From assembly GCA_002010075.1 (NCBI GenBank), contig MTMG01000017.1, positions 55,141 through 119,140 on the forward strand: a stretch of DNA of 64,000 bases, written 5' to 3'. Source of the stretch: Methanomicrobia archaeon JdFR-19. GTDB lineage: Archaea > Halobacteriota > Methanosarcinia > DSM-18856 > Methermicoccaceae. This document shows positions 1 through 64,000 of this stretch, piece after piece. Below the pieces are notes generated by a model, which saw only the letters and a program-made list of their open reading frames with translations, was not told the DNA's origin and made no database searches. Positions within the stretch are counted from its first letter, which is position 1, and every line of letters begins with the position of its first letter. Both the position numbers and the translations under genes were made by a program.

Positions 1-1
1 T

Positions 2-922
2 TTGGCAGGATTTCATGTAACGAGGGCGGCCCTCAGAGACATATATGTGATGGGTGCTGTACCGGTGGCAGTCATTTCAGATATCCATCTTGCAGACGAC
101 GGAGATGTTTCAAAGATTCTTGAACATGTTGCAGGGATATCTGCGGTGTGTGAGGTAATGGATGTACCTTATGTGAGTGGTAGCACGCTGAGAATAGGCG
201 GGGACATGGTGATAGGAGACAGGATGACTGGAGGGGTTGGTGCCGTTGGAATAGGTGAGATAAGCAAAATGAAACTTAGGAAAAATGTGGTTGTGGGCGA
301 TGTTATTGTTATGACAGAGGGAGCGGGAGGGGGGACGATATGCACTACTGCACTGTACAATAATATGCCAGAGATAGTGGAGGAGACAATAAACGTCGAT
401 TTTTTGAGGGCTGCACATACTTTACTTCAGAGTAAATTATCCCAGCATGTTCATTCAATGACCGATGTTACGAATGGTGGGTTGAGAGGAGATGCAGAGG
501 AGATATCTAAAGTAAGTGGTACGAAGCTTGTTGTGTTCGAGGAAGAAGCCAGAAAACTTGTGAATAAGAAAGTAATTGACATGCTTGATAAATTGAATAT
601 CGACTATCTTGGCGTTTCTTTGGATTCGTTGTTATTGGTACTTCCTGAAAAATATGCTCTGTCTGTTATAGAGCTGTTCGACGACGTTGGCGTGCGGGCC
701 GGTGTTGTTGGAAGGGTCGAAGAGGGCAGGGGAGCAGTACTGGTTGAAAATGGAGAGGAGAAAGATTTCACACCACGTTTCAGGGAGTCTGCATACACTC
801 CGATAAAGAAGGTTGTTGGAGAGTTGACACCACCCGACTTTGATTATATGAAAGAGAAGGTTGAAATAGCTACAAAAAAAGCGATAGAGAAGAAGAAAAG
901 GGTTGTTAGTAAGTTGAAATGA
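2..922 (+). CDS. AIR synthase-related protein (PurM/HypE/SelD superfamily), 5' partial
   Basis: ATP-dependent aminoimidazole-ribonucleotide-synthase-fold protein, cut by the left window edge; about the last 306 residues are present. Seen: the superfamily N-terminal core with a GAVP turn, a conserved HVHSMTDVTNGGLRGDAEEIS segment typical of the second domain, and a lysine-rich tail. Relatives include HypE, selenophosphate synthetase, thiamine-phosphate kinase and methanogen marker proteins, and the true substrate cannot be told from this fragment. It ends in TGA just before a minus-strand tRNA. The TTG at position 2 is only the first in-frame codon, not a supported start. Confidence 0.75.
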   Translation: MAGFHVTRAALRDIYVMGAVPVAVISDIHLADDGDVSKILEHVAGISAVCEVMDVPYVSGSTLRIGGDMVIGDRMTGGVGAVGIGEISKMKLRKNVVVGDVIVMTEGAGGGTICTTALYNNMPEIVEETINVDFLRAAHTLLQSKLSQHVHSMTDVTNGGLRGDAEEISKVSGTKLVVFEEEARKLVNKKVIDMLDKLNIDYLGVSLDSLLLVLPEKYALSVIELFDDVGVRAGVVGRVEEGRGAVLVENGEEKDFTPRFRESAYTPIKKVVGELTPPDFDYMKEKVEIATKKAIEKKKRVVSKLK

Positions 923-926
923 AAAA

Positions 927-999
927 TGGGCTCGCCCGGATTCGAACCGGGGATCTTTGCCACGTCAAGGCAACGTCATAACCCCTAGACCACGAGCCC
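927..999 (-). tRNA. tRNA-Val (anticodon GAC)
   Basis: On the minus strand a full cloverleaf folds: acceptor GGGCTCG pairs with CGAGCCC, the anticodon stem TTGCC/GGCAA closes a TTGACGT loop with anticodon GAC, and the T arm is CCCGG-TTCGAAT-CCGGG. The discriminator is A73 at 927. The 3' CCA is not encoded. No intron is present. Confidence 0.96.
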
Positions 1000-1141
1000 G
1001 CTATCGATTTTAGTAGGTGTCTTATTAGTTTTGAGAGGTTTATGTATTTAGAGTTTATGATGGACAGGTTATAAACAGCGTATGAAAGAAATACTCATTA
1101 AGCTCAAATTTTATAAATGATGAACTGGATGATGTGAGAGG

Positions 1142-2014
1142 ATGTTAACGCTTGCGATACCAAAGGGAAGTTTAGAGGCTGGAACACTTCAGCTATTCAA
1201 AGAGGCTGACCTCGAAATAAAGAAAACTGAACGAGAGTACAATCCAAAGATAGATGACCAAAGGATAGGCAAAGTGAAAATACTGAGACCTCAAGAAATC
1301 CCGAAGTATGTTGAAGAGGGGTACTTTGACATCGGTATTTCTGGTTTGGACTGGGTACTTGAGAGCGGAGCGGATGTGGTTGAGGTTGCAGACTTACCAT
1401 ATACAAAACAGGGAATGGGCAGTGTTAGGATAGTGATAGCTGTACCTCAAGACTCGCCTTGGAACTCTCCAACAGATATAAAACCAAATTCGAGGATTTC
1501 GACCGAGTATCCCAATCTCACTTCCGAGTATTTTAAGAAATTGGGAATCCCTGTGGAGATAAAGTACTCGTATGGTGCAACAGAAGCAAAGGTTCCAGAG
1601 CTTGTTGATGTGGTCGTTGATTTAACAGAAACTGGCTACACCCTCCTAAAGAATGGACTAAAGATAATAGGAACGATACTTGAGTCGACAACTAAGTTGA
1701 TAGCAAATAAAGATAGCTGGAAGGACCCTGTAAAAAGAAGTGAGATCGAAGAAATCAGCATACTTCTCCGTTCGGCCATAGAGGCAAGGGGAAAGGTCAT
1801 GATAAAGCTCAACGCTCCTGAAGATAAACTTGATGCGATAATAAATGCTCTACCCGCTCTCAAGAAACCAACCGTTTCAGCCCTTTATAAGACTAATTAT
1901 TATGCGGTTGAGACAGTAGTCGATAAGAGCGAGGTAAACATCTTGATACCAAAACTGAAGGGGCTTGGTGCCGAGGACATAGTGGAGATGAAGATATCGA
2001 AACTAATCTACTGA
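1142..2014 (+). CDS. hisG: ATP phosphoribosyltransferase, long form (HisG)
   Basis: First enzyme of histidine synthesis, joining ATP and PRPP to give phosphoribosyl-ATP in the cytoplasm. The 290-residue length and start MLTLAIPKGSL match the long HisG class. The two-lobed catalytic domain includes GYFDIGISGLDWV and the PRPP-binding run ending DVVVDLTETGYTL near residues 158-170. A C-terminal ACT-like regulatory domain (about 215-290) normally binds histidine, so feedback inhibition is expected and no HisZ partner should be needed. No other his genes are adjacent. It lies 10 nt upstream of an ACT-domain gene and may be cotranscribed with it. Confidence 0.95.
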   Translation: MLTLAIPKGSLEAGTLQLFKEADLEIKKTEREYNPKIDDQRIGKVKILRPQEIPKYVEEGYFDIGISGLDWVLESGADVVEVADLPYTKQGMGSVRIVIAVPQDSPWNSPTDIKPNSRISTEYPNLTSEYFKKLGIPVEIKYSYGATEAKVPELVDVVVDLTETGYTLLKNGLKIIGTILESTTKLIANKDSWKDPVKRSEIEEISILLRSAIEARGKVMIKLNAPEDKLDAIINALPALKKPTVSALYKTNYYAVETVVDKSEVNILIPKLKGLGAEDIVEMKISKLIY

Positions 2015-2024
2015 TGTGGTAGAT

Positions 2025-2528
2025 ATGAGGGTAACGATGGATCTGGAGCTTAAAGATGTGCCGGGAAAACTCGTAGAGGCTCTTCTTCCGTTTTAGGAAG
2101 TGGATGCGAACATACAGAGTGTTGTACATTTTAGGGACAAAAAAACATCAAGGGGTACGGTTTATGTGAAGGTTGTTGCTGAGACTACTCCTGAAAACAT
2201 TGATAAGATTCTGGACAAACTCATAGAAAGAGGAATATCAGTTGCATCGTGTGGAGAAGAAAGACTCGTTGAAGAGGGTTCGGTTTTGGTGATTGGGCAC
2301 ATAATACATTCTGATATCAGAGACACCATAGACAAAATAGATTCTACGGGATATGCTGAAGTGGTTGAGTTGAAAATATCTATGCCAGCCATTGAAAAGC
2401 CATCTGCAGCATATCTTGTAATAAGAGCAAAAACAAAGAGACATCTTCAGAAGGCAATAGACATACTCAAGCAAGTGTCTGAGGATAAGGAGCTTCTTGT
2501 GGTCGAGCCAATTTCTGGTATTATTTAA
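2025..2528 (+). CDS. ACT-domain regulatory protein with an in-frame TAG at codon 24
   Basis: Read from ATG 2025, the protein starts MRVTMDLELKDVPGKLVEA, a textbook ACT-domain beginning, meets TAG at 2094-2096, and continues in the same frame as EVDANIQSVVHFRDK to TAA at 2526-2528. In ACT domains the helix after the DxPG turn runs into GxNIxSVxH, so the TAG falls inside the first helix where relatives have an ordinary residue. Starting at GTG 2100 instead would delete the first strand and most of the helix. The gene follows hisG by 10 nt. Role: probably an amino-acid-sensing regulator; the ligand is unknown. I read the TAG as sense, probably pyrrolysine. Confidence 0.85.
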
Positions 2529-2574
2529 AATTATTTAAATATTTATTCAGTCTTAAAGGGGTGAGGTGAGTATT

Positions 2575-3468
2575 GTGAAGGTAAATGGAGTTGAGATAGA
2601 GGATACTTTTGCAGAGGCGTTTCCGATAAAGGTTGGAAGATTTTTGATAACGGGAGCAACGAGAAGATGGGCAGAAGTTGCAGCTCTGGAGGCAACGGGG
2701 TTTGGAACATCCGTTATAATGTGTCCAGCAGAAGCAGGCATCGAAAAGAGAGTGCGGGCAAGTGAGAGTCCAGACGGAAGACCGGGAGTTTACGTGCAAA
2801 TATGCACATTCAGCTACAAATCCCTCGAAGACCAGATTCTCAGGAGAATTGGTCAGTGTGTGCTAACTGCACCAACAACAGCAGTTTTTAATGGGCTTCC
2901 AGATGTCGAGAAGCAACTCAACGTAGGATTCAAGTTGAAGTTCTTTGCGGATGGGTATGAGAGGGAAGTTGAAATCAGTGGTAGAAAGTGTTATGCGATA
3001 CCGATGATGGAAGGAGAATTTATAACAGAGGAAAATGTGGGGGCAGTAGATGGTGTTGCAGGAGGAAACTTCTTCATTTTCGGTGAAAGTCAAATGGCAT
3101 CTCTAACAGCCGCGGAAAATGCCGTAGATGCAATAATGGAACTCGAAGGCTCTATAACTCCGTTCCCGGGAGGCATTGTTGCCTCGGGTTCAAAACCTGG
3201 CTCAAAAAAATACAGTTTCATGAAAGCAACAACCAATGAAAAGTTCTGTCCCACGCTGAGAGAGTCCGTGGAGGATACGAACATTCCAGAGGGGTGCAAA
3301 GCAGTCTATGAGATTGTGATAAACGGTTTGAATGTGGAGGCAGTCTCACAAGCCATGAGAATTGGGATAGAAGCTGCTACGAAGGTTCCAGGAGTTATGG
3401 GAATCAGTGCAGGAAATTATGGGGGAGATCTTGGACCATACAAGATAAACTTGCATGACCTCTTCTAA
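2575..3468 (+). CDS. ftr: Formylmethanofuran:tetrahydromethanopterin formyltransferase
   Basis: Transfers the formyl group between methanofuran and tetrahydromethanopterin, the second step of the archaeal C1 pathway and reversible in oxidative metabolism. The start MKVNGVEIEDTFAEAFP and the 297-residue length match Ftr. I chose GTG 2575 rather than GTG 2566 because GAGGTGA lies about seven bases upstream and the family starts at this point. The body contains LITGATRRWAEVAALEATGFG and the C-terminal GNYGGDLGPYKINLH. It converges on cdhE with a T-rich 26-nt gap that can terminate both transcripts. Confidence 0.97.
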   Translation: MKVNGVEIEDTFAEAFPIKVGRFLITGATRRWAEVAALEATGFGTSVIMCPAEAGIEKRVRASESPDGRPGVYVQICTFSYKSLEDQILRRIGQCVLTAPTTAVFNGLPDVEKQLNVGFKLKFFADGYEREVEISGRKCYAIPMMEGEFITEENVGAVDGVAGGNFFIFGESQMASLTAAENAVDAIMELEGSITPFPGGIVASGSKPGSKKYSFMKATTNEKFCPTLRESVEDTNIPEGCKAVYEIVINGLNVEAVSQAMRIGIEAATKVPGVMGISAGNYGGDLGPYKINLHDLF

Positions 3469-3494
3469 CGTTTTCCCCTTTTATTTTCCATTTT

Positions 3495-4892
3495 TTATTT
3501 TTCTGGGGGCCAGTTTTTCTCCATCCATCCTGGAATTCTTCCGGAGTCTTGTGGTCCGACAAATACCTTCAAGCCCGTCAAATCCTCTAATTCTCCTTGA
3601 ACTCTTGCAGCAAGCCCAGGTATCACAACAGTTCTGTGAGAGAGTTTGCTGAAGTCGAACTCATCCAAAGTCTCTTTTATTTTCTGTGCAGTGAGTTGTC
3701 CTCCTGCAACTGCAGCCTCAACTCCGATTCCATCCGTATTCACAACAGCAAGATAACAGTCAATTCCGTTTGATGAAAGGTCACTTTCCACAGTATAGTA
3801 TGTAAGAGCAAAGTTTGTTGTAACGAACACAGGAGAATTCTCATCAGGCTCTCCTATCTCCCTTATGCCTGCTTCAACCTGAACTGGTGTCCTTGGGTCG
3901 GTGTATATGGTCTCCCTTATATGAACCTCTGCAAGAAGAGAGTGCGGTTGAGTTCCATGGAGAATCAAAATATCTCCGTACTTAACAATCATTAAACTTG
4001 CAAGAACCGCCTCCCAGTATGATGCGCTCAGCTCATCTTCATACACGAGCCAAGCTGTTGCAGGCACACCCATCAATGGATATGCAATTTCTTTCTGTCC
4101 CTCGAGTATGGCACCCCTTCTCAGTTTGAGGAAGTTGTGGAATGTCTCTCTCAACTTCTCGCCACTCGGGAAAGTGCCGGGGTCGAGTACGAGTTTCTCA
4201 ACTCCAGCACCTCTGAATGTTATGGCCATCGATTTCAAGAGATTGAGGTCTCCAAATGAACAAAGTGTGACTGGAACATCGTACTTCATTACAAGTTCCA
4301 GCACTTCTTTCCAGTTCTCTTTGTTTGCTCCGTATATGAGCGGATTTCTATCTGAAGCAACTTCCATACCAGCTTTGAGAACACTTGGGTCGAATGAACA
4401 CAGAACAAGGGGGAGATCTGTTATTTCAACAACTTCCTTAACGGTCTCTTTAAACTTCTCCGGGTCTCCAGAAACACTTCTAATTGCTATTCCATCCAAC
4501 GTCAGAAATTCACCTACATAGAACTTCCTAAAGTTTTCTATCTCCGAGACTCTTTCCTTGAGCTCGTCCATGTCCATGGTGTCCCATACATCATAGAACA
4601 AGGCGGTTGGGTTAAAGAAAGTGAGTTGATGTCTGTAAAGAACATCATCCCCTCCAATCTTAACAGCTCTCTCTCCCACACCAATCGTTATCTCCTTCAC
4701 TTCGGGTGCGAGAAGCTCTGCCAATTTGTTGTATCCTTCCTCATCCTCCTTCACAAGAGGTATGCAATCCTCAAGTTTTGCATCTCTGTTGATTAACTTC
4801 GAAGCGAATGCCATACATGTTGGCTCTCCACACTCTCCGCAGTTTGTTTTTGGAAGTAGTTGATAAACCTCGAGAGGACTTTTTACCTTCAT
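3495..4892 (-). CDS. cdhE: Acetyl-CoA decarbonylase/synthase, corrinoid Fe-S protein large (gamma) subunit
   Basis: Carries the methyl group on a cobamide between tetrahydromethanopterin and the acetyl-CoA synthase centre, as part of the corrinoid iron-sulfur module with CdhD. The N-terminus has the low-potential 4Fe-4S motif TNCGECGEPTCMAFA with a fourth Cys about 16 residues on (residues 18-43). A TIM-barrel middle and a C-terminal corrinoid-binding domain follow; total 465 residues, normal for the family. It starts one base after the cdhD stop, so the two are translated as a pair. No cdhA, cdhB or cdhC is present next to it. Confidence 0.96.
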   Translation of the reverse strand: MKVKSPLEVYQLLPKTNCGECGEPTCMAFASKLINRDAKLEDCIPLVKEDEEGYNKLAELLAPEVKEITIGVGERAVKIGGDDVLYRHQLTFFNPTALFYDVWDTMDMDELKERVSEIENFRKFYVGEFLTLDGIAIRSVSGDPEKFKETVKEVVEITDLPLVLCSFDPSVLKAGMEVASDRNPLIYGANKENWKEVLELVMKYDVPVTLCSFGDLNLLKSMAITFRGAGVEKLVLDPGTFPSGEKLRETFHNFLKLRRGAILEGQKEIAYPLMGVPATAWLVYEDELSASYWEAVLASLMIVKYGDILILHGTQPHSLLAEVHIRETIYTDPRTPVQVEAGIREIGEPDENSPVFVTTNFALTYYTVESDLSSNGIDCYLAVVNTDGIGVEAAVAGGQLTAQKIKETLDEFDFSKLSHRTVVIPGLAARVQGELEDLTGLKVFVGPQDSGRIPGWMEKNWPPEK

Positions 4893-6209: not shown

Positions 6210-6230
6210 GCTCTACAAAACCCCTTATCC

Positions 6231-6980: not shown

Positions 6981-7060
6981 GGGGATTTACCCTCATTTCT
7001 CATTGATTATAAAATTTTGGGAGAAAGTTTTATAAATATAGAGCATTAAAAACCACCTTC

Positions 7061-7843: not shown

Positions 7844-7880
7844 CCTAAAAACTCTGTTGAGTTGGTCGAGATTGGGGGTC

Positions 7881-8648: not shown

Positions 8649-8686
8649 AAGTACATTATATATACTATATAATAAACTAACCAGAC

Positions 8687-9877: not shown

Positions 9878-9879
9878 GT

Positions 9880-10584: not shown

Positions 10585-10587
10585 AAT

Positions 10588-10614
10588 GTACAACACTTTT
10601 GTAGGTGTGTGTAC
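10588..10614. other. Imperfect inverted repeat between moeB-like gene and speH
   Basis: GTACAACAC and GTGTGTGTAC form a stem with one bulge around an 8-nt loop, four bases after the moeB-like stop and about 70 bp before speH. It could be a terminator or a site controlling the polyamine operon. A TATA-like ATATATTTTA lies further downstream near 10650. Confidence 0.35.
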
Positions 10615-10684
10615 TTAACATAAAAACAAATGTTTTAAATTTATGATATATTTTAGCCCTATTATGGTGAGATAAGGATGGGTG

Positions 10685-11047: not shown

Positions 11048-12039
11048 AAAAACAGATAGTTCAGGCACTATCATCAAGTAATAAAAGCATATATGAGCTG
11101 ATGGGCTCTCAGGATGCAAGTATATCTGAATTTTTCTATGTACTCAAAGAAATGAAGGATGAAGGGATGATATCTATAGAAAAAGGGATCGTCTCACTTC
11201 TGCACGACCACACAAATAAGTATGTGGGAAGGCAGTATGAAGGAAAATGTCGTGTGTGTGATGGGACTGGGTATTCTATTCATGGTTATGAAAGTATTCT
11301 TGAAGAGTTTAAAGATATAATTAAAAACCGACCCAATTGCATCGAAGAGTATGATCAGGGTGCCATGAGTGTTGAAGATGTTGTTAGAAGAGTTGCGTTT
11401 ATTCATGAGAGGGGAGATTTGCTGGATGCAAATATACTCGTGATGGGTGATGATGACCTCTTTAGCATCGCAGCATCACTCACCGAGCTCCCCAAAGAGG
11501 TATTTGTTTTGGATGTTGATGATAGGATAATTTCATTTCTGAAAAATGTTGCAAATGAAAGAGGACTTCCCATAAAGGCGATGAAGTATGATGTCAGAGA
11601 CCCGATTCCATACGAATTAAAAAATAAGTTTGATGTATTCATTACAGACCCAGTAGAAACACTTCCCGGAATTGGGCTGTTTTTGTCAAGAGCAGTATCT
11701 ACTCTGAAGGGTGTTGGCTCATCAGGATATTTTGGGTTAACAACGCACGAGGCAACAAGAAAGAAATGGTATGAAATTCAGAAAATTCTACATGATATGG
11801 GCTTTGTTATCACAGATATAAGAAGAAGGTTCAGCATATATCCACAGGAGGGTAAACTTTTCTTTGATTTTAGTAAAATCATAGAGGACATAGTACCGCT
11901 TGACAGCGAGTGGTACAGTTCTTCTTTTCTGAGGATAGAAGCAATCAAAGAGCCAAAACCGATTTACGATGGGAGAGTTGATATCGGTAATGAACTATAT
12001 GAGGATGAAGAGAGCAGTATTCCAGACATCAGATTATAA
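11032..12039 (+). CDS. bpsA: Branched-chain polyamine synthase BpsA (N4-bis(aminopropyl)spermidine synthase)
   Basis: Adds two aminopropyl groups to spermidine to give a quaternary branched polyamine, known from hyperthermophiles where it stabilises nucleic acids. At 335 residues it shows an N-terminal winged-helix-like part, a CRVCDGTGY zinc-like element (residues about 65-73), and the signature MGDDDLFSIAASL of the catalytic Rossmann domain. Its acidic C-terminal tail is typical. Its start lies inside speH, which provides its co-substrate. The 3' end overlaps the convergent epimerase gene by 11 nt. Confidence 0.92.
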   Translation: MFRRIKKQIVQALSSSNKSIYELMGSQDASISEFFYVLKEMKDEGMISIEKGIVSLLHDHTNKYVGRQYEGKCRVCDGTGYSIHGYESILEEFKDIIKNRPNCIEEYDQGAMSVEDVVRRVAFIHERGDLLDANILVMGDDDLFSIAASLTELPKEVFVLDVDDRIISFLKNVANERGLPIKAMKYDVRDPIPYELKNKFDVFITDPVETLPGIGLFLSRAVSTLKGVGSSGYFGLTTHEATRKKWYEIQKILHDMGFVITDIRRRFSIYPQEGKLFFDFSKIIEDIVPLDSEWYSSSFLRIEAIKEPKPIYDGRVDIGNELYEDEESSIPDIRL

Positions 12040-12949
12040 CAGAGTAATGAGAAATCAGCTTTTCAATACCTTCTTTCAAGCTAACTTTTGGCTTGAATCC
12101 AATAATCTCTTCTGAATGGCTCATGTCTGCCAGTGTATGATATACGTAGTTCTTTATTGGATTTTCAACGTATATTGGTTTTATATCTGTGCCAAGAACA
12201 TCGTTTATAAGTGAAACTACATCGTTGAAGGAGTGGTTTTTCCCAGTTCCAACATTGAAGATATAGTTTCGGTTAGCTTTCTTGATTTTCTTTATAAGCA
12301 ACTCAACAAACCTTACAACATCCCCAACATATATGAAGTCTCTCGTTTGAGTTCCATCCCCGTATATCACTGGACTTTTACCTTCTAACATAGTCCAGAT
12401 GAATTGGGAAACAATGTTAGCGTATTTCCCTTTGTGCAACTCATTCTCTCCGTACACGGAAAAAAACCTCAGTCCTGTAGAATTCACTCCAAAGTTCTCA
12501 TAATAAAATAGTGCTGTATCTTCATTGAATTTTTTAGAGAGTTCATAGTACGAACTTGGCTGGACCTACATGTCTTCCCTATGTGGGGGTGGACACTTCG
12601 AGTAAAGGGAAGATGTGGATGCATATATGACATCAGCACCAACTTCTGAGGCACACTCGAAGATGTTGATGGTTCCATTCACATTCACATCCATCGCTTT
12701 GTGCAGGTCTTCTTGAAACATGGGTGCAGAAGATGCTGATCCAAGATGAATTATGAAATCTGCATTCTTGCATATTTGTTCAAACTCCTTGTCAAGAATG
12801 CTCATCCTCACAAACTCGACATCGTTTAGATTATCAACCCTACCGAGTGAGAGGTCATCAACAGCAACTACCTCGTGCTTGTCACTCAAACTGTTTGCTA
12901 TGTGTGAGCCTATAAAACCAGCTCCTCCAGTTATCACAATATCCGGCAT
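12029..12949 (-). CDS. NAD-dependent nucleotide-sugar epimerase/dehydratase with in-frame TAG at codon 128
   Basis: Extended short-chain dehydrogenase. The upstream part has the NAD motif TGGAGFIGSH (residues 7-16) and a Ser-rich ASTSSLY element. The reading frame then reaches REDM, TAG (12568-12566) and continues VQPSSYYELSKKFNE with the catalytic Tyr-xxx-Lys, then LRFFSVYGEN and the C-terminal substrate domain. The total is 307 codons, normal for the family. Without read-through the first fragment lacks the catalytic Tyr and Lys and the second lacks the cofactor site. The residue before VQPSS is variable in this family, so the TAG site tolerates substitution. Likely role is sugar-nucleotide synthesis for glycans. 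Confidence 0.88.
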
Positions 12950-13003: not shown

Positions 13004-14053
13004 ATGAAGTGGATGATCGTAAGTATGGTGTTTTTATGCGTACTTAGTTTGGGATGTGTTCAGACCGTGACAGAAGAGAAAACCCTCTACATTGTGAACT
13101 TACCACCATCGACAATGCTTGACCAGCTCAAGGCAGGTGATATAGATGGTTTCATAGCATGGGAGCCGTTCAATGCAGAAGCTGTTGTTTCTGGATACGG
13201 CAAATATCTCATACAGTCAGGTGAGGTCTGGCCCAACCATCCGTGTTGTGTGCTTGCGGTATCAGACTCATATAAGGATGACAGGGTCATCGAGGCACTT
13301 GTTTGGGCACATATAAAGGCAACCCGATTTATAAATGACCCAGCAAATCATGATAGGGTTGTTGAGTATGCCATGGAGTTTACAGGGAAGGACAGGGATG
13401 TGGTAGAACTTGCCATAAGCAACATAAAGTATGTGGAGTATCCAAACAAGACAGAATTCCGAAATTATTATCATAAGTTGAAGGAAGGGCAGATACTCAA
13501 AGTGAGTTTAGAAGAGCTTGGGTATTCCGATGAAGATGCGTTTTTCAATGACTTTCTAAATAGTTCATACTATGAGGACGTTGTCTCCCATCTAAACGAG
13601 AACCCAGCTTGGATGCCTGACAAAGTCTCGCCAGATGAGGTAGTAAGGATTGGATACCTTTCTGCAGACCTCCATCAGCTTGCCATATACATTGCACTCA
13701 AAGAGGGATATTACAAGGAGGTCGGACTTGTTGAAGGAGAGAATCTAATTGTGAAACCACCTTATGTAAATGGAGTTGCAGTGATGGAAGCCTTCAAGAA
13801 CAAAGAGATTGACGCAGCTTATCTGGGCGGTGCACCAGCGACCCTGAAAAGGATAAACGATATGACTGATATACATGTGGTTGCTGGTGTAAACAATGAA
13901 GGGTCTGCAATCGTTGTCAGGGCAGACTCGGACATAAATACAACATCAGACCTTGAAGGGAAGACAATAGCAACACCGGGTGTTGGAACTGTCCAAGACT
14001 TCATAGTACGACAAGTGGCATCCAACGAAGGGTTAACAATAGTGTTAAAGTGA
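13004..14053 (+). CDS. NitT/TauT-type ABC substrate-binding lipoprotein, apparently circularly permuted
   Basis: Extracytoplasmic solute-binding protein of 349 residues with a lipobox (LSLGC, Cys18). In ordinary relatives the order is RIGYL...GVGTVQDF, then MLxxLKxGDIDGFIAWEP...WPNHPCC. Here the second half comes first (residues about 27-200: TMLDQLKAGDIDGFIAWEP and GEVWPNHPCC), and the usual N-terminal lobe is last (about 211-349: VVRIGYLSADLHQLAIYIA to EGLTIVLK). Joining the end to residue 27 would restore the normal sequence. Its probable partners, the permease and ATPase, lie on the opposite strand facing it. The substrate is unknown; the family handles nitrate, sulfonates and thiamine precursors. 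The stop is TGA, overlapping larB by 9 nt. Confidence 0.82.
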   Translation: MKWMIVSMVFLCVLSLGCVQTVTEEKTLYIVNLPPSTMLDQLKAGDIDGFIAWEPFNAEAVVSGYGKYLIQSGEVWPNHPCCVLAVSDSYKDDRVIEALVWAHIKATRFINDPANHDRVVEYAMEFTGKDRDVVELAISNIKYVEYPNKTEFRNYYHKLKEGQILKVSLEELGYSDEDAFFNDFLNSSYYEDVVSHLNENPAWMPDKVSPDEVVRIGYLSADLHQLAIYIALKEGYYKEVGLVEGENLIVKPPYVNGVAVMEAFKNKEIDAAYLGGAPATLKRINDMTDIHVVAGVNNEGSAIVVRADSDINTTSDLEGKTIATPGVGTVQDFIVRQVASNEGLTIVLK

Positions 14054-14836
14054 TTGACGTTTCGATGTCACAAGGTTTGCAATCTTTGCTGCAAATGCAC
14101 CTGCAACAAACCCCGCATCGATATTGACAACAGCCAATACGGAACACGACTGGAGCATTGAGAGGAGAGCAGCCTATCCCCTCCCTCCCATCCCATATCC
14201 GGTTGATACTGGCAAACCTATCACTGGCACATCAACCAGAGCAGAAACAATTGCGGGCAGTGTCCCCTCTCTACCAGCAACAACGATCATGACATCCACA
14301 CCCTCAGACAGCATCGACGATAATGAAGGAAAGAGTCTGTGAATGCCCGCCACACCCACATCATATGCACATACAACATCACATCCCATCTCCTCTGCAG
14401 TTATTCGAGCCTCCTCTGCAACTGCAACATCACTGGTTCCAGCACACAGTATCCCAACCTTTCCTCCTTTCTTCATATCTTCACGCTTCTTCACAACAAC
14501 CATTTTTGCTTTTTCGTGCTTTAAAACATTAAGTTTCATTTTTTTAAAATTTAAGCAAACTTCATTCATTTTATTTCCAGAAATTCTTGTTATTATGACT
14601 TTTCCATTCTTTTCTATCAATCTTTTGGATATTTCAACTATTGTATTGGCATCTTTTCCTTCTGCAAGCACGGCTTCAGGTACTCCTGTACGGACAATCC
14701 TTCCCACATCAACCTTTGCCAACTCTCCAGCTTCCTCATACTCAAACATCCTTATGGCTCTCTTTGCTTCGTCAACATCAATTTCCCCACTTAGGAGTTT
14801 TCTCAGAATCTCATCCAACATCCAACCCACCATCAC
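14045..14836 (-). CDS. larB: Pyridinium-3,5-biscarboxylic acid mononucleotide synthase LarB with in-frame TAG at codon 221
   Basis: PurE-like carboxylase that starts nickel-pincer cofactor synthesis from nicotinate adenine dinucleotide. The body shows [24 protein letters not shown] and [31 protein letters not shown]. The frame reads GMGGRG, TAG (14176-14174), then [10 protein letters not shown] and [15 protein letters not shown], and ends TAA at 14045. The part after TAG is the highly conserved LarB C-terminus, so a stop at TAG would remove a needed 42-residue segment. The start is GTG 14836 or ATG 14833, overlapping the ATPase stop. It is the last gene of the dap/ABC operon. Confidence 0.9.
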
Positions 14837-23089: not shown

Positions 23090-24527
23090 AATATATCCAA
23101 AAGTGAAAATAGCACCACACAGCATTCTTGACTCGATTAATACAAAAGTTATTGTGAGGAATGAAAATTGTATAGCATGTGGTACTTGTGAGAGTGTATG
23201 TATAAACAAGGCACATACGAGACCGAGAGGCTATAACACAGTTATAACCCTTCCTGAAAAGTGCGAGTTTTGTGGTAAGTGTGTTGAGAACTGTCCAATG
23301 AACGCTCTATCAATTGAAAGAAATATGCTAATGGATGTTATGGGGGATTCCAGATGGACACCAGAGCTCATAATATCAACATGGAAACAAGCATCTACTG
23401 GCTCATCCCCTACGTCAATTGAGTGTGAGGTTGGTAGAAGTGGAGGAGGATTTGACAGACTCCATTTCAAATTCAGAGACAGGGCGGTGAAGAAAGAGTA
23501 TGTGGATACCTCGATAGAGCTCAACAAGAGAGAATCTGGTCCGAGGATAAGAATAGACGTTCCTTGGTATGGGGGTGGCATGTCATATGGTTCGATTAGC
23601 AAGAATGTTATGCTTGCAAGAGCTATTGCTGCAAAGGAGTGGAACACATTTACATGTACTGGTGAAGGGGGATATCCTGAGGAGCTGGTTCCATATAAGG
23701 ACCATGTGATAACACAGATTGCAACTGGGCTTTTTGGCGTTAGCGAGGAGACAATAAAAAGGGCAAGAATTGTTGAGTTCAAGTATGCACAAGGTGCAAA
23801 GCCAGGATTGGGTGGCCATCTACTTGCAGACAAGGTCACGCCCGATGTTGCAAAAATGCGAGAGGTCGTTCCATATAGAAGCCTCTTTTCACCATTTCCC
23901 TTCCACAGCGTGTACTCAATAGAAGACCACAAAAAGCATGTGGATTGGGTGAGAGCAATAAAGCCAGAGCTGGTAGTTTCTGCAAAAGTCTCTACACCAT
24001 CTGATGTTGATATGGTTGCAATTGGTGTTTATTATGCTGGTGCGAACATTGTGCACATAGATGGCGGGTATGGGGGGACTGGAGCAGCGCCAAATATTGC
24101 AAAAAAGAATATAGCAATGCCTTTAGAGTATGCAATACCAAAGGTGCATAGATTTCTTGAACATGAAGGTGTTAGAGATGAGATAGTCTTGATAGCAAGC
24201 GGAGGTATTAGAAGTGTGTATGACATTGCAAAAGCGATTGCTTTGGGGGCAGATGGTGCAGTCATTGGAACTGCAGAGCTTGTTGCATTGGGGTGTAGAA
24301 GATGTGGGAATTGTGAGAGTGGAAGAGGATGTCCATTGGGAATAGCAACAACAGACCCAGAATTAAGTTGTGAGATTGATGTTGATTGGGCATCTCAGAG
24401 ACTGATAAATTTGTTTGCTTCTTGGAAAGAACAGCTTGTTGAAATCCTTAGGAAGGTAGGAGTTGAAAGTGTTGAGGAGCTAAGAGGGAGGACTGACCTT
24501 CTAAGATATGAGGGGGCGAAGATATGA
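23067..24527 (+). CDS. gltB2: Glutamate synthase, archaeal FMN/Fe-S subunit (domain 2)
   Basis: Reduces 2-iminoglutarate, formed from 2-oxoglutarate and glutamine-derived ammonia, to glutamate. N-terminal ferredoxin clusters CIACGTCESVC and CEFCGKCVENC feed electrons. The FMN barrel holds PWYGGGMSYGSIS, GAKPGLGGHL and HIDGGYGGTGAAP, and a C-terminal CRRCGNCESGRGCP carries the third cluster. I chose ATG 23067, inside the previous gene. The TGA overlaps the gltB1 ATG, so domains 2 and 1 are coupled. Length 486. Confidence 0.93.
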   Translation: MKMTTELKIYPKVKIAPHSILDSINTKVIVRNENCIACGTCESVCINKAHTRPRGYNTVITLPEKCEFCGKCVENCPMNALSIERNMLMDVMGDSRWTPELIISTWKQASTGSSPTSIECEVGRSGGGFDRLHFKFRDRAVKKEYVDTSIELNKRESGPRIRIDVPWYGGGMSYGSISKNVMLARAIAAKEWNTFTCTGEGGYPEELVPYKDHVITQIATGLFGVSEETIKRARIVEFKYAQGAKPGLGGHLLADKVTPDVAKMREVVPYRSLFSPFPFHSVYSIEDHKKHVDWVRAIKPELVVSAKVSTPSDVDMVAIGVYYAGANIVHIDGGYGGTGAAPNIAKKNIAMPLEYAIPKVHRFLEHEGVRDEIVLIASGGIRSVYDIAKAIALGADGAVIGTAELVALGCRRCGNCESGRGCPLGIATTDPELSCEIDVDWASQRLINLFASWKEQLVEILRKVGVESVEELRGRTDLLRYEGAKI

Positions 24528-25975
24528 GATACCAGAGAGAGTTGGAAGGTGGATGTGGAGTTCTCGGTGTTATATCAACCACACCAATAAAGGGAAAATA
24601 TCTATTCAGACCTCTTGTACAAATGCACAACAGGGGGAATGGAAAGGGAGGGGGAATTGCTGCAATGGGGCTTTCTCCAGAGGAATGGGGAGTTGATGAG
24701 GACATATTATATGAAGACTACATGCTCACTATTGCATATCTTGACCCATCTGTTAGAGACGAGGTTGAAAGTGAAATATACTCTGTTATGAACGTTGATT
24801 TTTCCAAAAGAATAGAGACGCTTGAAGATTATCGAGAAATTGGACTCAACGTAAAGCCACCAGAAGTTCTGGTATATTTCTGTAAACCCAAAAAATCTGC
24901 TCTTGAGAACTTTAAGCTATTCCATCCAGAATTGCAAGATAGTGAACTTGAAGACGAATTTGTATTCAGGAATTCAATAAAATTGAATAAACACTATTAT
25001 TCATCTGATAGAAGGGCGTTTGTCCTTTCGCATGGAAAGAATATGATAGTACTCAAGGTAGTTGGTTATGCAGAGCAAGTGATAAAATATTACAGGCTTG
25101 AAGACATTAGTGCCCATGTCTGGATTGGTCATCAGAGATACCCCACAAGGGGGAGAGTATGGCACCCAGGAGGGGCACATCCATTTGTGGGATTGAATGA
25201 TGCTTTGGTGCACAATGGCGACCTTGCAAACTATCACTCCATTGCAACATATCTCAAAGAGAGAGAGTGCGAGATTCTGTTCATGACAGATACTGAAGTT
25301 GCAGCTCTTCTATTTGACATGCTTACAAGAGTATATAAGTATCCAATAGAATATGCGATTGAGGCGATGGCTCCAACATGTGAGAGAGACTTCTGTCTAT
25401 TGTCACCGGAAAAACAGAGAGTATATAGAGCAATTCAATCAATTCATGCCAGATTCTCTCCGGATGGTCCATGGTTCTTTATAATTGCCAAAAACTACCC
25501 TGAAAGTGGGAAAATGAGCTTGATAGGCATAACAGATACATCAATGCTAAGGCCTCAAGTTTTTGCTCTTCAGAGAAGGAAAGAGAGCATAGGAATCATA
25601 GCATCAGAAAAACAGGCGATAGATGCATTGTTGGAGGAAGTACAAGAGCTTGGATTTGATCCGATTGCAGATGCCTACTGGAATGCAAGAGGCGGAAGCT
25701 ACACAGATGGTGGTGCGTTTATTTATGAGTTAACAGAGCAGGGATTGAAGATAACAGACAAATTTGGAAAGGATGTTATAGCGGATACGTTGCCATTCGA
25801 TGTCAAAGAACCAATCGACAGGGATGAAAGAGCGGAGATAGAATACGTACTTCGTTCTGGAGATGCCTACTCTGCTTTCGAATTGATATCACAGATAATA
25901 GATTTCAAGGAAGTAAGAGACATACTGCTTAAGATAAGTGAAGAAGGTGATGAAGAGAAGGAGTGTGTGATTTAG
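24524..25975 (+). CDS. gltB1: Glutamate synthase glutaminase domain (domain 1), ending at a TAG that is in frame with gltB3
   Basis: Class II glutamine amidotransferase releasing ammonia for GltB2. A ten-residue propeptide precedes the catalytic Cys in ELEGGCGVLGV (Cys11). The amidotransferase motifs HNRGNGKGGG, HQRYPTRGR and HNGDLANY follow. The 483-residue frame ends at TAG (25973-25975), the only TAG in the window that could be a terminal stop. The next codons stay open into gltB3 in the same frame. Read through, the product is a GATase-GXGXG fusion of 818 residues (24524-26980). The alternative is a normal stop with reinitiation. Confidence 0.9.
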   Translation: MRYQRELEGGCGVLGVISTTPIKGKYLFRPLVQMHNRGNGKGGGIAAMGLSPEEWGVDEDILYEDYMLTIAYLDPSVRDEVESEIYSVMNVDFSKRIETLEDYREIGLNVKPPEVLVYFCKPKKSALENFKLFHPELQDSELEDEFVFRNSIKLNKHYYSSDRRAFVLSHGKNMIVLKVVGYAEQVIKYYRLEDISAHVWIGHQRYPTRGRVWHPGGAHPFVGLNDALVHNGDLANYHSIATYLKERECEILFMTDTEVAALLFDMLTRVYKYPIEYAIEAMAPTCERDFCLLSPEKQRVYRAIQSIHARFSPDGPWFFIIAKNYPESGKMSLIGITDTSMLRPQVFALQRRKESIGIIASEKQAIDALLEEVQELGFDPIADAYWNARGGSYTDGGAFIYELTEQGLKITDKFGKDVIADTLPFDVKEPIDRDERAEIEYVLRSGDAYSAFELISQIIDFKEVRDILLKISEEGDEEKECVI

Positions 25976-25990
25976 ACCCTAACCTTGCTC

Positions 25991-26980
25991 ATGGACAGAA
26001 GGTATCCATCCAAAGTGAGAAGGAGCGTAGCTCTTTCGAGGTATAGGGAGATACTATACGAGGTATTAAGAAGATGTCCGAAAACAAGTGGAAAGAATCA
26101 GAAGTATGTATTTGCAGGATGGGGTGATGATATACCAGAGCCTTTGAAAGCTCAGACGCTTGTTGTGGATGCAAAAGATTTTCCACAAGAGGGTCCAGAA
26201 AGTCTCTCAAGGTTTGTTGTTAGAGCAGTAAAAGAGGGATGGAAGGATTTCATACTTTTCAATCTGAGAGGGCATAGGTTCGTGGCATGCGGACTTCAAA
26301 AAAGTCATGGGATATCAATACATGTCTATGGGAGTAGCGGGGATTACTTGGCATCAGGTCTTATGGGAGCAGAAGTATATGTTCATGGAAATGCGCAAGA
26401 TCAAGTTGCTCAAATTATAAAAGATGGAAAGCTGGTTGTGTATGGAGATGTTGGGCAAGCATTGTTGTATGGGGCAAAGGGAGGGGAAGTATACATCATG
26501 GGGAGCACTGCAGGGAGACCACTTATAAATGCAGTTGGCTGTCCAAGGGTTGTGATAAATGGAACATGTTTAGATTATCTTGCAGAATCTATGATGGCAG
26601 GAGATCCCCTAAAAGGTGGTGGTTTTGCAATCCTCAATGGAATAACTTTTGATGAGCGTGGTAGGATAACTGAACTACCAGAGCCATATCCGGGTGGGAA
26701 CCTCTTTTCACTTGCTTCTGGGGGAGCAATCTATGTGAGAGACCCCTACTTCAAAGTGGGAGAGGATCAACTCAATGGAGGGAAAATCACAACCCTCACG
26801 GAAGAAGACTGGAACCTCATAGAACCTTATCTCAGGGAGAACGAAAGATTATTTGGAATCCCAGTGGAAAGACTTCTAACGGTGGAAGGGAAGATAAGAA
26901 AACCATGGGAGGTTTATAGAAAAGTGGAAGTTTCCCCACTAAGGGCTCTTCAATCGTTAAATGCTCTTGGAGAATCATAA
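25991..26980 (+). CDS. gltB3: Glutamate synthase GXGXG domain (domain 3), possibly translated as a fusion to gltB1
   Basis: Right-handed beta-helix domain that holds the other glutamate synthase parts together. The glycine-rich repeats SGDYLASGLMGAEVYVHGNA and VYGDVGQALLYGAKGGEVYIMG are obvious (residues about 115-180). The first candidate ATG is 25991 but has no purine-rich ribosome site in the preceding dozen bases (CCCTAACCTTGCTC). It is in frame with gltB1 through TAG 25973. This supports synthesis by read-through as the C-terminal part of the gltB1 product. It ends TAA, 12 nt before glnA. Confidence 0.9.
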   Translation: MDRRYPSKVRRSVALSRYREILYEVLRRCPKTSGKNQKYVFAGWGDDIPEPLKAQTLVVDAKDFPQEGPESLSRFVVRAVKEGWKDFILFNLRGHRFVACGLQKSHGISIHVYGSSGDYLASGLMGAEVYVHGNAQDQVAQIIKDGKLVVYGDVGQALLYGAKGGEVYIMGSTAGRPLINAVGCPRVVINGTCLDYLAESMMAGDPLKGGGFAILNGITFDERGRITELPEPYPGGNLFSLASGGAIYVRDPYFKVGEDQLNGGKITTLTEEDWNLIEPYLRENERLFGIPVERLLTVEGKIRKPWEVYRKVEVSPLRALQSLNALGES

Positions 26981-54257: not shown

Positions 54258-54272
54258 GCTTAATAACAATGA

Positions 54273-54875: not shown

Positions 54876-54887
54876 GGAGTGGGTGGT

Positions 54888-55895: not shown

Positions 55896-55940
55896 TTTTT
55901 ATATATGTTCTGATGTTAGAAGGAGTTGAGAGGGTTAACA

Positions 55941-56498: not shown

Positions 56499-56504
56499 GT
56501 GATT

Positions 56505-57509: not shown

Positions 57510-57531
57510 GTTCTCGAGGGGTTGGCAGGAT

Positions 57532-59212: not shown

Positions 59213-59237
59213 GCTGTTGATGTTTGGGGGAAAGAGT

Positions 59238-59516
59238 ATGCATATTGAGCTTACCAATCTACTGGGTTTAGACCTCTACACAACAAAGGGAGTATACGTT
59301 GGAAGGGTACAAGATGTGGTCATAGAGTCATCAGAAGGTGTAATCGTGAGCCTCGCGGTTGTGAATGTGAATAAAAAGCTGTTCAATGTTGGTAACAAAG
59401 GAATTCTGATACCATACAGGTGGATCACTGCAGTAGGAGACATAGCACTCATGATGCATCCCATGAAGGCATCATCAAGTGAGGAGAAAGTTCCTGAATT
59501 CAGGGCTGGAGAATGA
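59238..59516 (+). CDS. PRC-barrel domain protein
   Basis: 92 residues from ATG 59238 (MHIELTNLLGLDLYTTKGVYVGRVQDVVIE), a complete PRC barrel as found in archaeal RimM-like or CdvA-related contexts. PRC barrels bind proteins or RNA-processing partners. GGGGGAAAG lies upstream; an alternative ATG is at 59220. The stop overlaps the Thg1-like start (ATGA), so the two are coupled. Confidence 0.87.
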   Translation: MHIELTNLLGLDLYTTKGVYVGRVQDVVIESSEGVIVSLAVVNVNKKLFNVGNKGILIPYRWITAVGDIALMMHPMKASSSEEKVPEFRAGE

Positions 59517-60211
59517 AATCGTTCAAAGACTATGAGGTCTATTCAGAGCTTAGGGTTGTCCCTCCCATAATTGTGAGAGTAGACGGTGTAAACTTCAAAA
59601 AGAAGTTATCCGAGTACAAGAAACCTTATGATGAAAGACTAAAGAATGCGTTTGTTGAGGTTGCAAAGGCTATCTTCAACAGCCCATTCACACCAGAATT
59701 AATATACCTATTTTCAGATGAACTGAATGTATATCTCGAGAATTTGCCTTTTAGAGGAAGAATTGAAAAAATAAATTCTGTGGTGTCTGGACTTGTTTCT
59801 TCTTTGTTCACACTTCAAATGAACAAAGAGTTCTTCTTTGATTCAAGGGTGATTCCTATAAAGAAAGAAGAGGTTTTTGAGTACCTTGCATGGAGGCAAA
59901 ATGAGTGCTGGAGAAACTGTTTAAACTCATATGCGTTCTATACACTTCTCAAGGAAGGATATGACCCACAAGAAGCGATAAAAACGCTTGAGGGAATTAA
60001 AAGTAAAAAACTTCATGATATCTTGTTCTCAAAAGGCATAAATATAGCAAAGGTTCCGGCATGGCAGAGAAGAGGTATACTTATTTATCGAGAAGAATAT
60101 CAAAAAGAGGGCTATAACCCAATTACAGGAGAGAGAGTAAGCACTAAAAGGAAAAAAATAGTGGTGAATGAAGAAATCCCTCTCTTCAAAAATTTGAAGA
60201 ATAAAATTTAA
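59513..60211 (+). CDS. tRNA(His) guanylyltransferase-like protein (Thg1-like)
   Basis: 232 residues with the polymerase metal motifs [12 protein letters not shown] (residues about 22-33) and [10 protein letters not shown], both resembling Thg1/TLP active sites. Archaeal Thg1-like proteins add nucleotides 3' to 5' and either place G-1 on tRNA-His or repair 5'-truncated tRNAs. It converges on EF-2 with 4 nt overlap. Confidence 0.87.
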
Positions 60212-62394
60212 CTTAAAAAGTCCTCCGGCTTCGGTACTTCGAGCTTCAGACCCTTTCTTTCTCTAATGCCCCTTATAACATCCTCCAACATACCGGTGGG
60301 TACGGGCTCAAATCCGGCAAATTCTGTACTCCATATTGCTCTTCCTTCTGTTGCACTTCTCAACGCTCCCGCAAATCCAAATAGCTCTGCGACTGGGGCT
60401 TTCGCCTCGATGATGGTTATATCTCCCTCCTGTTCCATCGACAGAATTATCCCCCGTCTTCCCTGAACCTCCCGGAGAGCCCCACTCATGTGCTCTTGAG
60501 GAACATGAATGAACACCTTCTGCATGGGCTCAAGAAGTGTTGGGCTTGCCTTCAAAATGGCTGCATGAATTGCACTTCTCACTGCAGGTATGACCTGAGC
60601 TGGCCCTCTGTGAACAGCATCCTCATGCAATTTTGCATCAACCAACTTAACTTTCACGCCCTGTACTGGCTCTCTTGCAAGTGGTCCAGCCCTCATTACT
60701 TCCTCAAATCCTTGGTGTATTAACTCCATGGTCTCTCTGAGATGCTGTATTCCTTTGGTCACGTCAACAAACACATTCCCTTCATATATGTGCGTAACAC
60801 CTTTTGCATCTTCCTTGTCCATGCCCCCTTCTATCAACTTATTCCTTCTATCTAGTTCGTTCATCTTCATCGTTATCTCGCCATCTTTTATCATCTCAAG
60901 CACTTTGGGCTCTAATGGCTCAACCATTATGTAGAACCTATTGTGCTTGTTTGGTGATTTGCCCTCTACCACATCACTCTTCCCCAGCACGGTCTCTCTA
61001 TAGACAACAATAGGTGGCGAGGTTGTTATCTCAACACCTTTATCTCGTTCTATCTTATGACAGACAACTTCAAGATGTAATTCGCCCATCCCAGCAAGTA
61101 AATGTTCTCCGGTTTCTTCGTTGATTGTCACCCTCAAAGTTGGGTCTTCCTTCGATGTCTGGCGCAATACTTCTATGAGTTTAGGTAGGTCTTTCATGTT
61201 CTTCGCTTCAATTGCAACAGTAACCACCGGCTCACTGTAATGTCTTATCTCCTCAAAGGGTGTCATAGGAATCGACGATGCTGTGGTTCCAACTATGGCG
61301 TCCTTCAAACCAGTGACTGCCACTATATTGCCTGCTGGAACCCTCTCTACATCAACCCGTTCTGGACCCATATATATGCTGACTTGCTGAACTCTGTCAA
61401 CTTTATGGGTGCCAGAAATATGAAGGTCAACTCCTTTTTCAATCGTTCCAGAAAACAATCTCCCGCTTGCAACCTCTCCAGCGTGCGGGTCAACTTGTAT
61501 ATCAGTTATCATGAGGGCTATCGGGGCGTTTGGCTCGCAGTTCAGCATGGCTTGTCCAATCTCACTGTTGATGTCTCCTTTCCATATCACAGGGATTCTT
61601 TCTTTCTGGGCATCAAGTGGATTTGGCAAAAATCGAACTACCATATCATTCACGACTTCGTGGAGTGGGCACTTCTCTGCAAGCTCCTTTACATTATCAC
61701 TCTTGCAACACTCAATAACTTCTTTGAAACCTACTCCGCTCTTCTTCATATATGGCACACTGATTGCCCAGTTATACAAAGCTGAACCAAATGAAACACT
61801 ACCATCTGATGCACTGACCTTCCATTCTTGATATTTATCCGGTGCCATGTTCTTTATGAGCTTATTAACTTGGTCTATGACCTTTCCCAACTTTATCTGC
61901 ATTGTTTGAGGGTCGACTTTGAGCTCGTTAATGAGTCTGTCAACCTTGTTGATGAACAAGACAGGGCGCACCCTTTCTTTGAGAGCTTGTCTGAGAACTG
62001 TCTCTGTCTGGGGCATAACACCCTCAACAGCGTCAACAACCACAATTGCACCATCAACCGCTCTCATAGCACGAGTAACATCCCCTCCAAAGTCCACGTG
62101 TCCGGGAGTGTCAATGAGATTTATCAGATACTCTTCACCCTCATACTCGTGCACCATTGAAACGCTGGCTGCGTTTATCGTTATACCTCTCGCCTGTTCT
62201 TCTTCGTCATAATCCATGAAAAGTTGTTTACCTGCAAGCTCCTTGGATATCATGCCTGCTCCAGCAAGCAAATTGTCTGTTAGAGTTGTTTTTCCATGGT
62301 CAATATGTGCAACTATCCCCATATTCCTGATCTTCTCAGGCTTGTACATCAGCTCTTTAATTTTCTCTATTGTTTCTTTCCTCGCCCTCGCCAT
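60208..62394 (-). CDS. fusA: Translation elongation factor 2
   Basis: 728-residue GTPase driving ribosome translocation. Seen: G1 [17 protein letters not shown] (residues about 26-42), [35 protein letters not shown], and in domain IV the diphthamide region [20 protein letters not shown]. No break or TAG within. It is divergent from the secreted TAG-containing protein gene. Confidence 0.98.
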
Positions 62395-62501
62395 TTCACT
62401 ACCTCACACAAGAACCATCATAGAGTCATCTTAAAACCCCTCTTACACCTATTTAAGTATGATGGTTATGTTTTTATTCTAAATAAACAAAATTATCCAT
62501 A

Positions 62502-63065
62502 ATGATACGGGATATATCCATTGTACTGATTGTGATACTGGCCATTTCTCTCACAATTGGTAGTGTGGACTCTGTTTATACAGACGACAAAAAGTATAAG
62601 CTGAATGAAGTAGCGGTGATAACAGTTATTGCGGATGATGGGGACATTGTGAGTGTCCAAGTGAGTAAGAAGAATGGACCCACATACACAATTGTATGGA
62701 ACTCAAGTGCATAGATGATACCATACGCCACATTCGATGGTGATACAGGATATGTAGTTTTTAACTGGGATATTTCTCAATATAATGATGGAAAAGGCAC
62801 ATATAGAATCGAGGCATTCATAGGTGGTGACCCAGTATACGGTATTCCAACCGGAAAGTACACAACGGTCAAAGTAAAAAAATCAAAAAACACAAATGAA
62901 ATAGAAGAAAATGTGGAAGAGATTGAAAATATTGAAAGTGTGGGAAGTGCCACCAGTGAACCAGTTGGAGAAGTGATTGACGAGGGTGTTGTTGTTATAC
63001 AGGGTGAAGTGGTCAAAAGACACTTCTCACTCGTGAGTATTCTGAGAAGACTGTTTGGTATATGA
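62502..63065 (+). CDS. Secreted beta-sandwich protein with in-frame TAG at codon 71
   Basis: From ATG 62502 there is a signal peptide (ISIVLIVILAISLTIGSVDS), then a beta domain KYKLNEVAVITVIADDGDI...YTIVWNSSA, TAG at 62712-62714, and directly on MIPYATFDGDTGYVVFNWDI...GTYRIEAFIGGDPVYG, an acidic linker and a basic tail. The strands on both sides of TAG form one Ig-like domain; the second half has no signal peptide of its own. So the TAG is read as an amino acid, or the gene is broken. Total 188 codons ending TGA. Role unknown; it may bind a surface component. Confidence 0.78.
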
Positions 63066-63076
63066 CGCGACAAGAC

Positions 63077-63877
63077 TCAAATCTCTAAAAATGCCCTCCT
63101 AATTCCTTCCATGTTTCTTATCTCTTCGGCCTTTTTCTTTGCTGTCTCTATCGCATATTTTATCTGATCAAAAGTCAGGTTTCCAACTCTGCCTTTCTGT
63201 ACGGCAGTTATACAACCATCTGAGTCTACTACAACGGTTATTCTCGCCCCAGCAACTTGTTCCTCCTCTTGGACAGGGTCAATAAGCAATCTCCCCCCCA
63301 CCTCCACAAAAGTCACAGGGATTGGAACACTTCTCATTGGGAGGGGTTCATCTGAACCAAGGTCATATCTTTCTGCAGGTATCTTTGCATTGAACAGCGC
63401 TGCTATGGCACCAAGACCAGAGGCATCCATGATGTTTCCTCCATCATCCAGCACATGAACATCTATAAAGACTATCCAGACTTGCTCTCCCGAAGAAATG
63501 CAGAGTTTTGTTAGGTCTATACAATTCGATTCCCTCACTCCCCTGTCCACAACTCTCGCAAGTTCAATGGCATCCTCACTTGGGGGTCCCGCCTCGAATA
63601 GTGGAGAGGCAGCAGGTATTAACTCAACATTCGTTATAATCACACCACTTTCTGGTGCATCTGGAAACGGTTCTCCGGGCTGTATTTTAACACCCACCAC
63701 GACCTGGGTATCGCCCCACACGACTCTTGCAGAGCCTTCGGCTTTTTTTATAACTCCGGTTTCCAAACTTATACTCCTAATTTCATCAAAACCTCTTCCA
63801 TCAAGTCTTTTACCCTGAATGATGAGATTGTAGATGTAGTCCTTTCTCAACTCAGCCATCACTTCTTCACTCGTCAT
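63077..63877 (-). CDS. rrp42: Exosome complex component Rrp42
   Basis: 266-residue RNase PH-fold subunit that is non-catalytic but completes the Rrp41-Rrp42 hexamer of the archaeal exosome. Seen: IIQGKRLDGRGFDEIRSI, VVVGVKIQPGEPFPDAPESG and VFIDVHVLDDGGNIMDASGLGA. Its start overlaps the Rrp41 stop by 11 nt (rrp41-rrp42 operon). Confidence 0.96.
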   Translation of the reverse strand: MTSEEVMAELRKDYIYNLIIQGKRLDGRGFDEIRSISLETGVIKKAEGSARVVWGDTQVVVGVKIQPGEPFPDAPESGVIITNVELIPAASPLFEAGPPSEDAIELARVVDRGVRESNCIDLTKLCISSGEQVWIVFIDVHVLDDGGNIMDASGLGAIAALFNAKIPAERYDLGSDEPLPMRSVPIPVTFVEVGGRLLIDPVQEEEQVAGARITVVVDSDGCITAVQKGRVGNLTFDQIKYAIETAKKKAEEIRNMEGIRRAFLEI

Positions 63878-64000
63878 CTATTCCAACCTCCTCTTTGAAC
63901 TCTTCTATATCCTTCTTAAACTCGACCTCACTACTCTCTTTTCTTTCTCTCTCCTCATCTTCACGCTCATATCTGTTTATCAGAGCTTCTCTCTGCATCT
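63867..64000 (-). CDS. rrp41: Exosome complex exonuclease Rrp41, 3' end only
   Basis: The frame entering from the right edge reads EALINRYEREDEERERK and ends EEVGIDDE then TGA at 63867-63869. Such an acidic C-terminal tail and the overlap with Rrp42 match Rrp41, the catalytic phosphorolytic subunit. The catalytic core lies outside the window. Confidence 0.8.
   Translation of the reverse strand, partial: MQREALINRYEREDEERERKESSEVEFKKDIEEFKEEVGIDDE

Follow-up and report, generated by a model that had tools for sequence, protein, structure and literature searches.

Probable genome-wide reading of UAG as pyrrolysine with a split PylRS in the archaeon JdFR-19

A 2025 paper in Science is said to report, from proteomics, that some archaea read all of their TAG codons as pyrrolysine, with Methanococcoides among the cases. 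Here, the use of TAG is examined in a 64,000-nucleotide stretch (the window; G000:C1:55141-119140, contig MTMG01000017.1) of Methanomicrobia archaeon JdFR-19 (G000) and in further parts of the same genome. The explanation that accounts best for the data, with a probability of about 0.88, is that UAG serves throughout this genome as a 62nd sense codon, for pyrrolysine, leaving TAA and TGA as the sole stops. A review names JdFR-19 and Ca. Hydrothermarchaeum profundi as archaea with the two-gene enzyme PylSn+PylSc (PMC9499178). A Codetta screen of more than 250,000 genomes reports that arginine codons are read in new ways in some bacteria and lists nine archaeal stop codons, each with an amino acid inferred for it, as candidates still to be resolved; matches to Pfam models of proteins that contain pyrrolysine were excluded (PMC8629427).

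The G000 assembly comprises 1,288,683 bases in 27 contigs; a published table describes JdFR-19 as a Methanosarcinales genome recovered from subsurface fluids of the Juan de Fuca Ridge and gives its size as 1,289 kb in 27 scaffolds, at 43.2 % GC (PMC5369317), and the GC content of the 452 kb sampled here is 42.9 %. The sole same-genus genome found, 'Methanosarcinales archaeon isolate B74_G9' (G001), served as the sister genome: in a comparison with 59 of its 90 contigs, 227 kb map at 94.0 % identity. The DNA of three more distant relatives was also compared, namely 540 kb of G006, which lacks PylS, 140 kb of G009, a class-mate with a fused PylS, and 120 kb of G044, a pyrrolysine-using relative. 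In unfiltered tblastn against the sister genome and the relatives, most hits came from antisense shadow frames and a putative rRNA stretch (C3:58-63 kb); filters were then applied, and the comparison with relatives retained 93 of 220 high-scoring segment pairs.

The first-pass annotation of the window had reported five in-frame TAGs, four inside genes (2094, 12566, 14174 and 62712) and one between gltB1 and gltB3 (25973), and all five are indeed in frame at these positions. To judge from profile and homologue alignments, protein homology crosses the TAG at 12566, 14174 and 25973. The predicted NAD-dependent sugar-nucleotide epimerase (12029..12949, minus strand; TAG 12566, codon 128) is matched on both sides of the codon by Pfam (residues 4-234) and by TIGR02197 (residues 4-302); the TAG recurs in G001, with synonymous/non-synonymous changes of 19/6 before and 30/6 after it, and the residue facing it in G006 is Ile. 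LarB, a nickel pincer cofactor protein (14045..14836, minus strand; TAG 14174, codon 221), matches NF033503 with 236.8 bits (cut-off 175) over residues 42-254, spanning the TAG; this codon lies outside the G001 contigs compared, and the LarB of G009 has Glu in the TAG column and 24 of 25 aligned residues identical 3' of it. The TAG at 25973 (codon 484) proved to lie not between two gltB genes but inside a single gene for a fused glutamate-synthase-type GATase and GXGXG protein (24524..26980, plus strand). Of the 120 homologues listed, 119 reach at least 740 residues, and none of these has a gap opposite the TAG (E 51, D 21, T 15, S 10, K 6, others 16), and the protein-database entry from the JdFR-19 genome (P0121) is a fragment of 483 residues; no solved structure matched the fused protein at 1e-10. 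The gene at 2016..2528 (plus strand; TAG 2094, codon 27) has a weak match to the LOR/SDH region 3' of the TAG (PF04455, 26.5 bits, residues 90-155). Its TAG is shared with G001, with synonymous/non-synonymous changes of 8/1 before and 23/1 after, so that its reading as a sense codon is supported by the same-genus genome. A position inside a coding gene is supported at these four sites.

The absence of TAG from a hand tally of 68 gene ends had been offered as a further argument. Among 63 non-overlapping open reading frames (ORFs) of at least 100 codons in the window, 32 end in TGA, 28 in TAA and three in TAG, and these three are the in-frame cases at 12566, 14174 and 25973, so the statement that no TAG is needed as an end was right. 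Taken alone, the tally is weak evidence, because the pyrrolysine-using G044 has one TAG end in 72 ORFs; zero TAGs among 68 ends has p = 2e-5 at the TAG share of G006 (14.8 %) and p = 0.38 at that of G044 (1.4 %). The strength of the case rests in the interrupted genes, above the gene-end tally.

Across the sampled 452 kb, ORFs of at least 200 codons (n=323) end in TAA (98), TGA (200) or TAG (25), with a median distance to the next stop of 12 codons after TAA, 12 after TGA and 62 after TAG. TAG ends account for 21 of 212 ORFs in the first 20 contigs of G001 (median tail 30 codons), for three of 70 in G009 (median 111, all three tails at least 40 codons), for 13 of 88 in G006 (median 12) and, in G044, for a single ORF with a tail of two codons. 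G009, with its fused PylS, also looks like a genome that uses TAG as sense. A control that read on past TAA and TGA ends to the next TAA or TGA entered neighbouring genes and gave no distinction between TAG and TAA (synonymous/non-synonymous 359/222 after TAA, 458/455 after TGA, 283/157 after TAG), and was replaced by a test confined to the 20 codons past each end. Standard-code, protein-like ORFs in the part mapped to G001 (n=252) end in TGA (139), TAA (85) or TAG (28), and the synonymous/non-synonymous changes in those 20 codons were 70/180 after TAA, 117/322 after TGA and 51/33 after TAG (51/33 versus 187/502 for TAA and TGA combined; Fisher p = 2.3e-9). Codons 3' of TAG evolve as protein; those 3' of TAA and TGA do not. 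Moreover, the end codon is a sense codon in G001 for four of 27 mapped TAG ends versus five of 215 TAA/TGA ends (p = 0.011). The 28 TAG-ended ORFs include 19 with tails of at least 59 codons, which are not individually cleared of antisense shadows, and nine with short tails. For two of these nine the G001 counterpart of the TAG is a sense codon (CAG, TGG), one encodes a SpoU-type methylase whose TAG is spanned by a G044 alignment, one coincides in part with an AP-endonuclease-family gene on the opposite strand and one shows changes of 7/3 (synonymous/non-synonymous) in its tail; the other four are candidates for true TAG ends.

When TAG is translated as sense, the mapped part of the genome contains 245 genes, 60 of which carry a total of 74 TAGs. 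Since some of these codons are close to the 5' end, possibly ahead of the true start, only those with protein-like change on either side are counted as shown, namely 36 TAGs (32 genes). The 66 TAGs that could be mapped to G001 correspond there to TAG (60) or to a sense codon (six: CAG, AAG, GAG or TAT), never to TAA or TGA; in the other direction, six more TAGs of G001 have a sense codon as their counterpart in G000. The resulting conservation of 90.9 % fits a tolerated residue: it is slightly lower than the value for Asn (92.5 %), the amino acid that varies most. Stop-free alignments with G006, G009 and G044, some of them weak (27-34 % identity), enclose 24 TAGs in 20 ORFs, and a Pfam domain spans a TAG in seven of the ten of these proteins scanned. 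The residues facing the 24 TAGs are diverse: R (4), E (3), G (3), T, Q and N (2 each), L, P, I, S, A, M and V (once each), plus one gap. The interrupted genes include those for LarB, GltB, a TldD-type protease, an Obg-like GTPase and CofH-like proteins, which agrees with the earlier proposal that UAG occurs in ordinary metabolic genes, and protein-like conservation is seen 3' of TAG.

The search for pyl genes that the first-pass annotation had recommended returned the full set. The tRNA-Pyl gene pylT, with a CUA anticodon and a predicted fold comprising a 6-bp anticodon stem and a 5-nucleotide D loop, lies at L003:946-1016 of G000 and is also found in B74_G9; among the 14 tRNA genes in the sample it is the sole one with this anticodon. 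It is grouped near C6:53-54 kb with pylSn and pylSc, which form two adjacent frames and match the NCBIfam models TIGR03912 (91.8 bits, cut-off 51.15) and TIGR02367 (297.9 bits, cut-off 178.15), respectively; residues 10-280 of PylSc align with the solved PylRS 3dsq (3e-84). The biosynthetic genes pylB (417.6 bits, cut-off 348.2) and pylC (334.6 bits, cut-off 248.3) are located at C6:6.2-8.3 kb, and pylD (222.4 bits, cut-off 150.05) at C18:1.4-2.2 kb. The pyl genes are thus spread over three places on C6 and C18 and do not form a single pylTSBCD cluster. As a positive control, the in-frame TAG of MtmB is its codon 202, numbering from Met, the known pyrrolysine site, and the MttB of G000 carries one TAG. 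From this machinery and the MtmB codon, the residue inserted at UAG is inferred to be pyrrolysine. Reassignment on the scale of the genome, as first proposed from the window, is supported by the machinery together with the interrupted genes and their protein-like tails; a UAG-decoding tRNA is present, and many true TAG ends were not found in the sample.

Two MtmB-family proteins without TAG are also encoded in G000, L048 (G000:C14:15182-16522) and L049 (G000:C9:38669-39991); an alignment of three sequences places Met and Phe opposite the pyrrolysine codon of MtmB, and the substrates of the two proteins may be different ones. In addition to PylS and PheST, G000 has a second class-II synthetase (L002; G000:C18:11598-12281), which with 534 residues resembles O-phosphoseryl-tRNA synthetase in size.

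A PylS match at 1e-40 is present in 102 of 237 genomes of the class; outside the genus these matches are 35-42 % identical and mostly frames of at least 400 codons, i.e. of the fused type. The PylSc of G001 is 94 % identical to that of JdFR-19. Among the protein-database matches listed (best 120 of 4,635), the closest outside the genus belongs to a 'Methermicoccaceae archaeon' (61 %), and the others show 49-54 % identity, several being named as bacterial. In a PylRS tree of 60 rows, a 100/100 branch splits the clade of the JdFR-19 enzyme from 15 fused rows. By its separate genes and its place apart from the fused class in this tree, the PylRS is assigned to the PylSn+PylSc class.

A release factor that no longer recognizes UAG was also considered. 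The aRF1 of JdFR-19 (L141:992-2209) has unchanged NIKS and GTE loops, and its YHCASEF motif retains Y, C and F. This motif is unusual in comparison with 30 class-mates, yet not among the 120 homologues listed (own included), where the Ala column is variable (D 90, G 17, N 5, A 4, S 4), and the idea of a narrowed aRF1 was dropped. The closest named relatives of this aRF1 among the matches listed are 'Methermicoccaceae archaeon' proteins (77 and 67 %), with which it shares a small residue plus Glu in the YxCxxxF motif. Since the motifs are kept, competition at UAG is a simpler explanation than narrowing of the factor. PylBCD would make pyrrolysine, the split PylSn/PylSc would charge it onto tRNA-Pyl, and at UAG the charged tRNA would outcompete aRF1; read-through would cost little because few or no genes would still need UAG as an end, and mutation would scatter pyrrolysine over tolerant, mostly polar positions.

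Intact aRF1 motifs also speak for facultative reading as described for Methanosarcina, in which UAG would remain a leaky and rare stop, pyrrolysine would be important only in methylamine methyltransferases and other TAG events would be incidental. PMC9499178 describes competition of Pyl-tRNA with the release factor at UAG and close downstream stops that limit read-through, and four or five of the short TAG tails in the present set may follow true ends. Such facultative reading is nevertheless unlikely: the TAG tails are long and protein-like, unlike the two-codon tail of G044, and TAG interrupts genes such as larB and gltB. Still less probable is that UAG is sense but specifies a standard residue (for example Gln, Glu or Lys) through another suppressor tRNA, with tRNA-Pyl serving few genes; the CAG, AAG, GAG or TAT codons that replace six TAGs in G001 and the prevalence of Glu opposite the GltB TAG speak for it, whereas the only CUA tRNA in the sample is tRNA-Pyl and no single residue faces the 24 TAGs in relatives. 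Sequencing errors, pseudogenes or a binning artefact hardly come into question, although G000 and G001 are both metagenome assemblies, as the 60 shared TAGs occur in two separately assembled genomes, codons 3' of TAG are under purifying selection and the estimated contamination is 0.54 %.

Several observations weigh against UAG being a pyrrolysine codon throughout the genome. The aRF1 shows no change that would block UAG reading, and among the 252 genes called under the standard code, four or five may truly end in TAG. One end, at C2:79523-79786, is TAA in G000 and TAG in G001; judged from the letters, it is probably an antisense shadow. G001 has TGA at four places within genes called in G000, and antisense shadow frames were only partly removed from the gene sets. 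The open frame at 62487..63065 (plus strand) has no match to a Pfam or NCBIfam family; its TAG 62712 is shared with G001, although the changes around it are not protein-like (synonymous/non-synonymous 6/11 before, 11/11 after), leaving both its coding status and its read-through unproven. The sample covers 452 kb of the 1,289 kb, and the assembly is a metagenome bin estimated to be 89.75 % complete.

Archaeal stop reassignments have rarely been reported, and a further case on a different type of PylRS helps to ask what drives such change, the candidates to be weighed being emptied UAG ends, an unchanged release factor and a tolerated residue. If TAG is read as sense, standard annotation of the JdFR-19 genome cuts proteins at TAG. 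A natural split PylRS/tRNA-Pyl pair that would serve a whole proteome may also be useful for genetic code expansion. The evidence is evenly balanced on the wider proposal that a subsurface member of Methanosarcinales separately evolved an all-TAG pyrrolysine code on a bacterial-type split PylRS, making pyrrolysine an ordinary, weakly constrained residue of scores to hundreds of proteins.

What is new here is TAG as sense in a lineage with a bacterial-type split PylRS; the kind of code itself has reportedly been published already. The archaeal pyrrolysine code reportedly likewise has TAG within ordinary genes and at few or no gene ends, together with a full pyl set and TAG in MtmB; the present case differs in its lineage, in its split PylSn+PylSc, in pyl genes at three places and in being known from sequence. 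A literature search, limited to the text available, found no report of TAG reassignment in JdFR-19 or B74_G9. The PylSn+PylSc class as described in PMC9499178 has the same separate pylSn and pylSc beside pylT and includes the JdFR-19 enzyme itself, although the parts of that account at hand do not mention genome-wide use of TAG. The pyrrolysine trait of Methanosarcinaceae shares tRNA-Pyl, PylBCD and TAG in MtmB and MttB, but there PylS is fused and 35-42 % identical, and in the sampled part of G044 TAG ends are rare and the tail is short. Ciliate stop reassignment, in the available text of PMC4698671, likewise involves a stop emptied and reused as sense; there the codons specify standard amino acids and eRF1 is altered, whereas in JdFR-19 the reassigned codon would be read as pyrrolysine beside an aRF1 with ordinary motifs.

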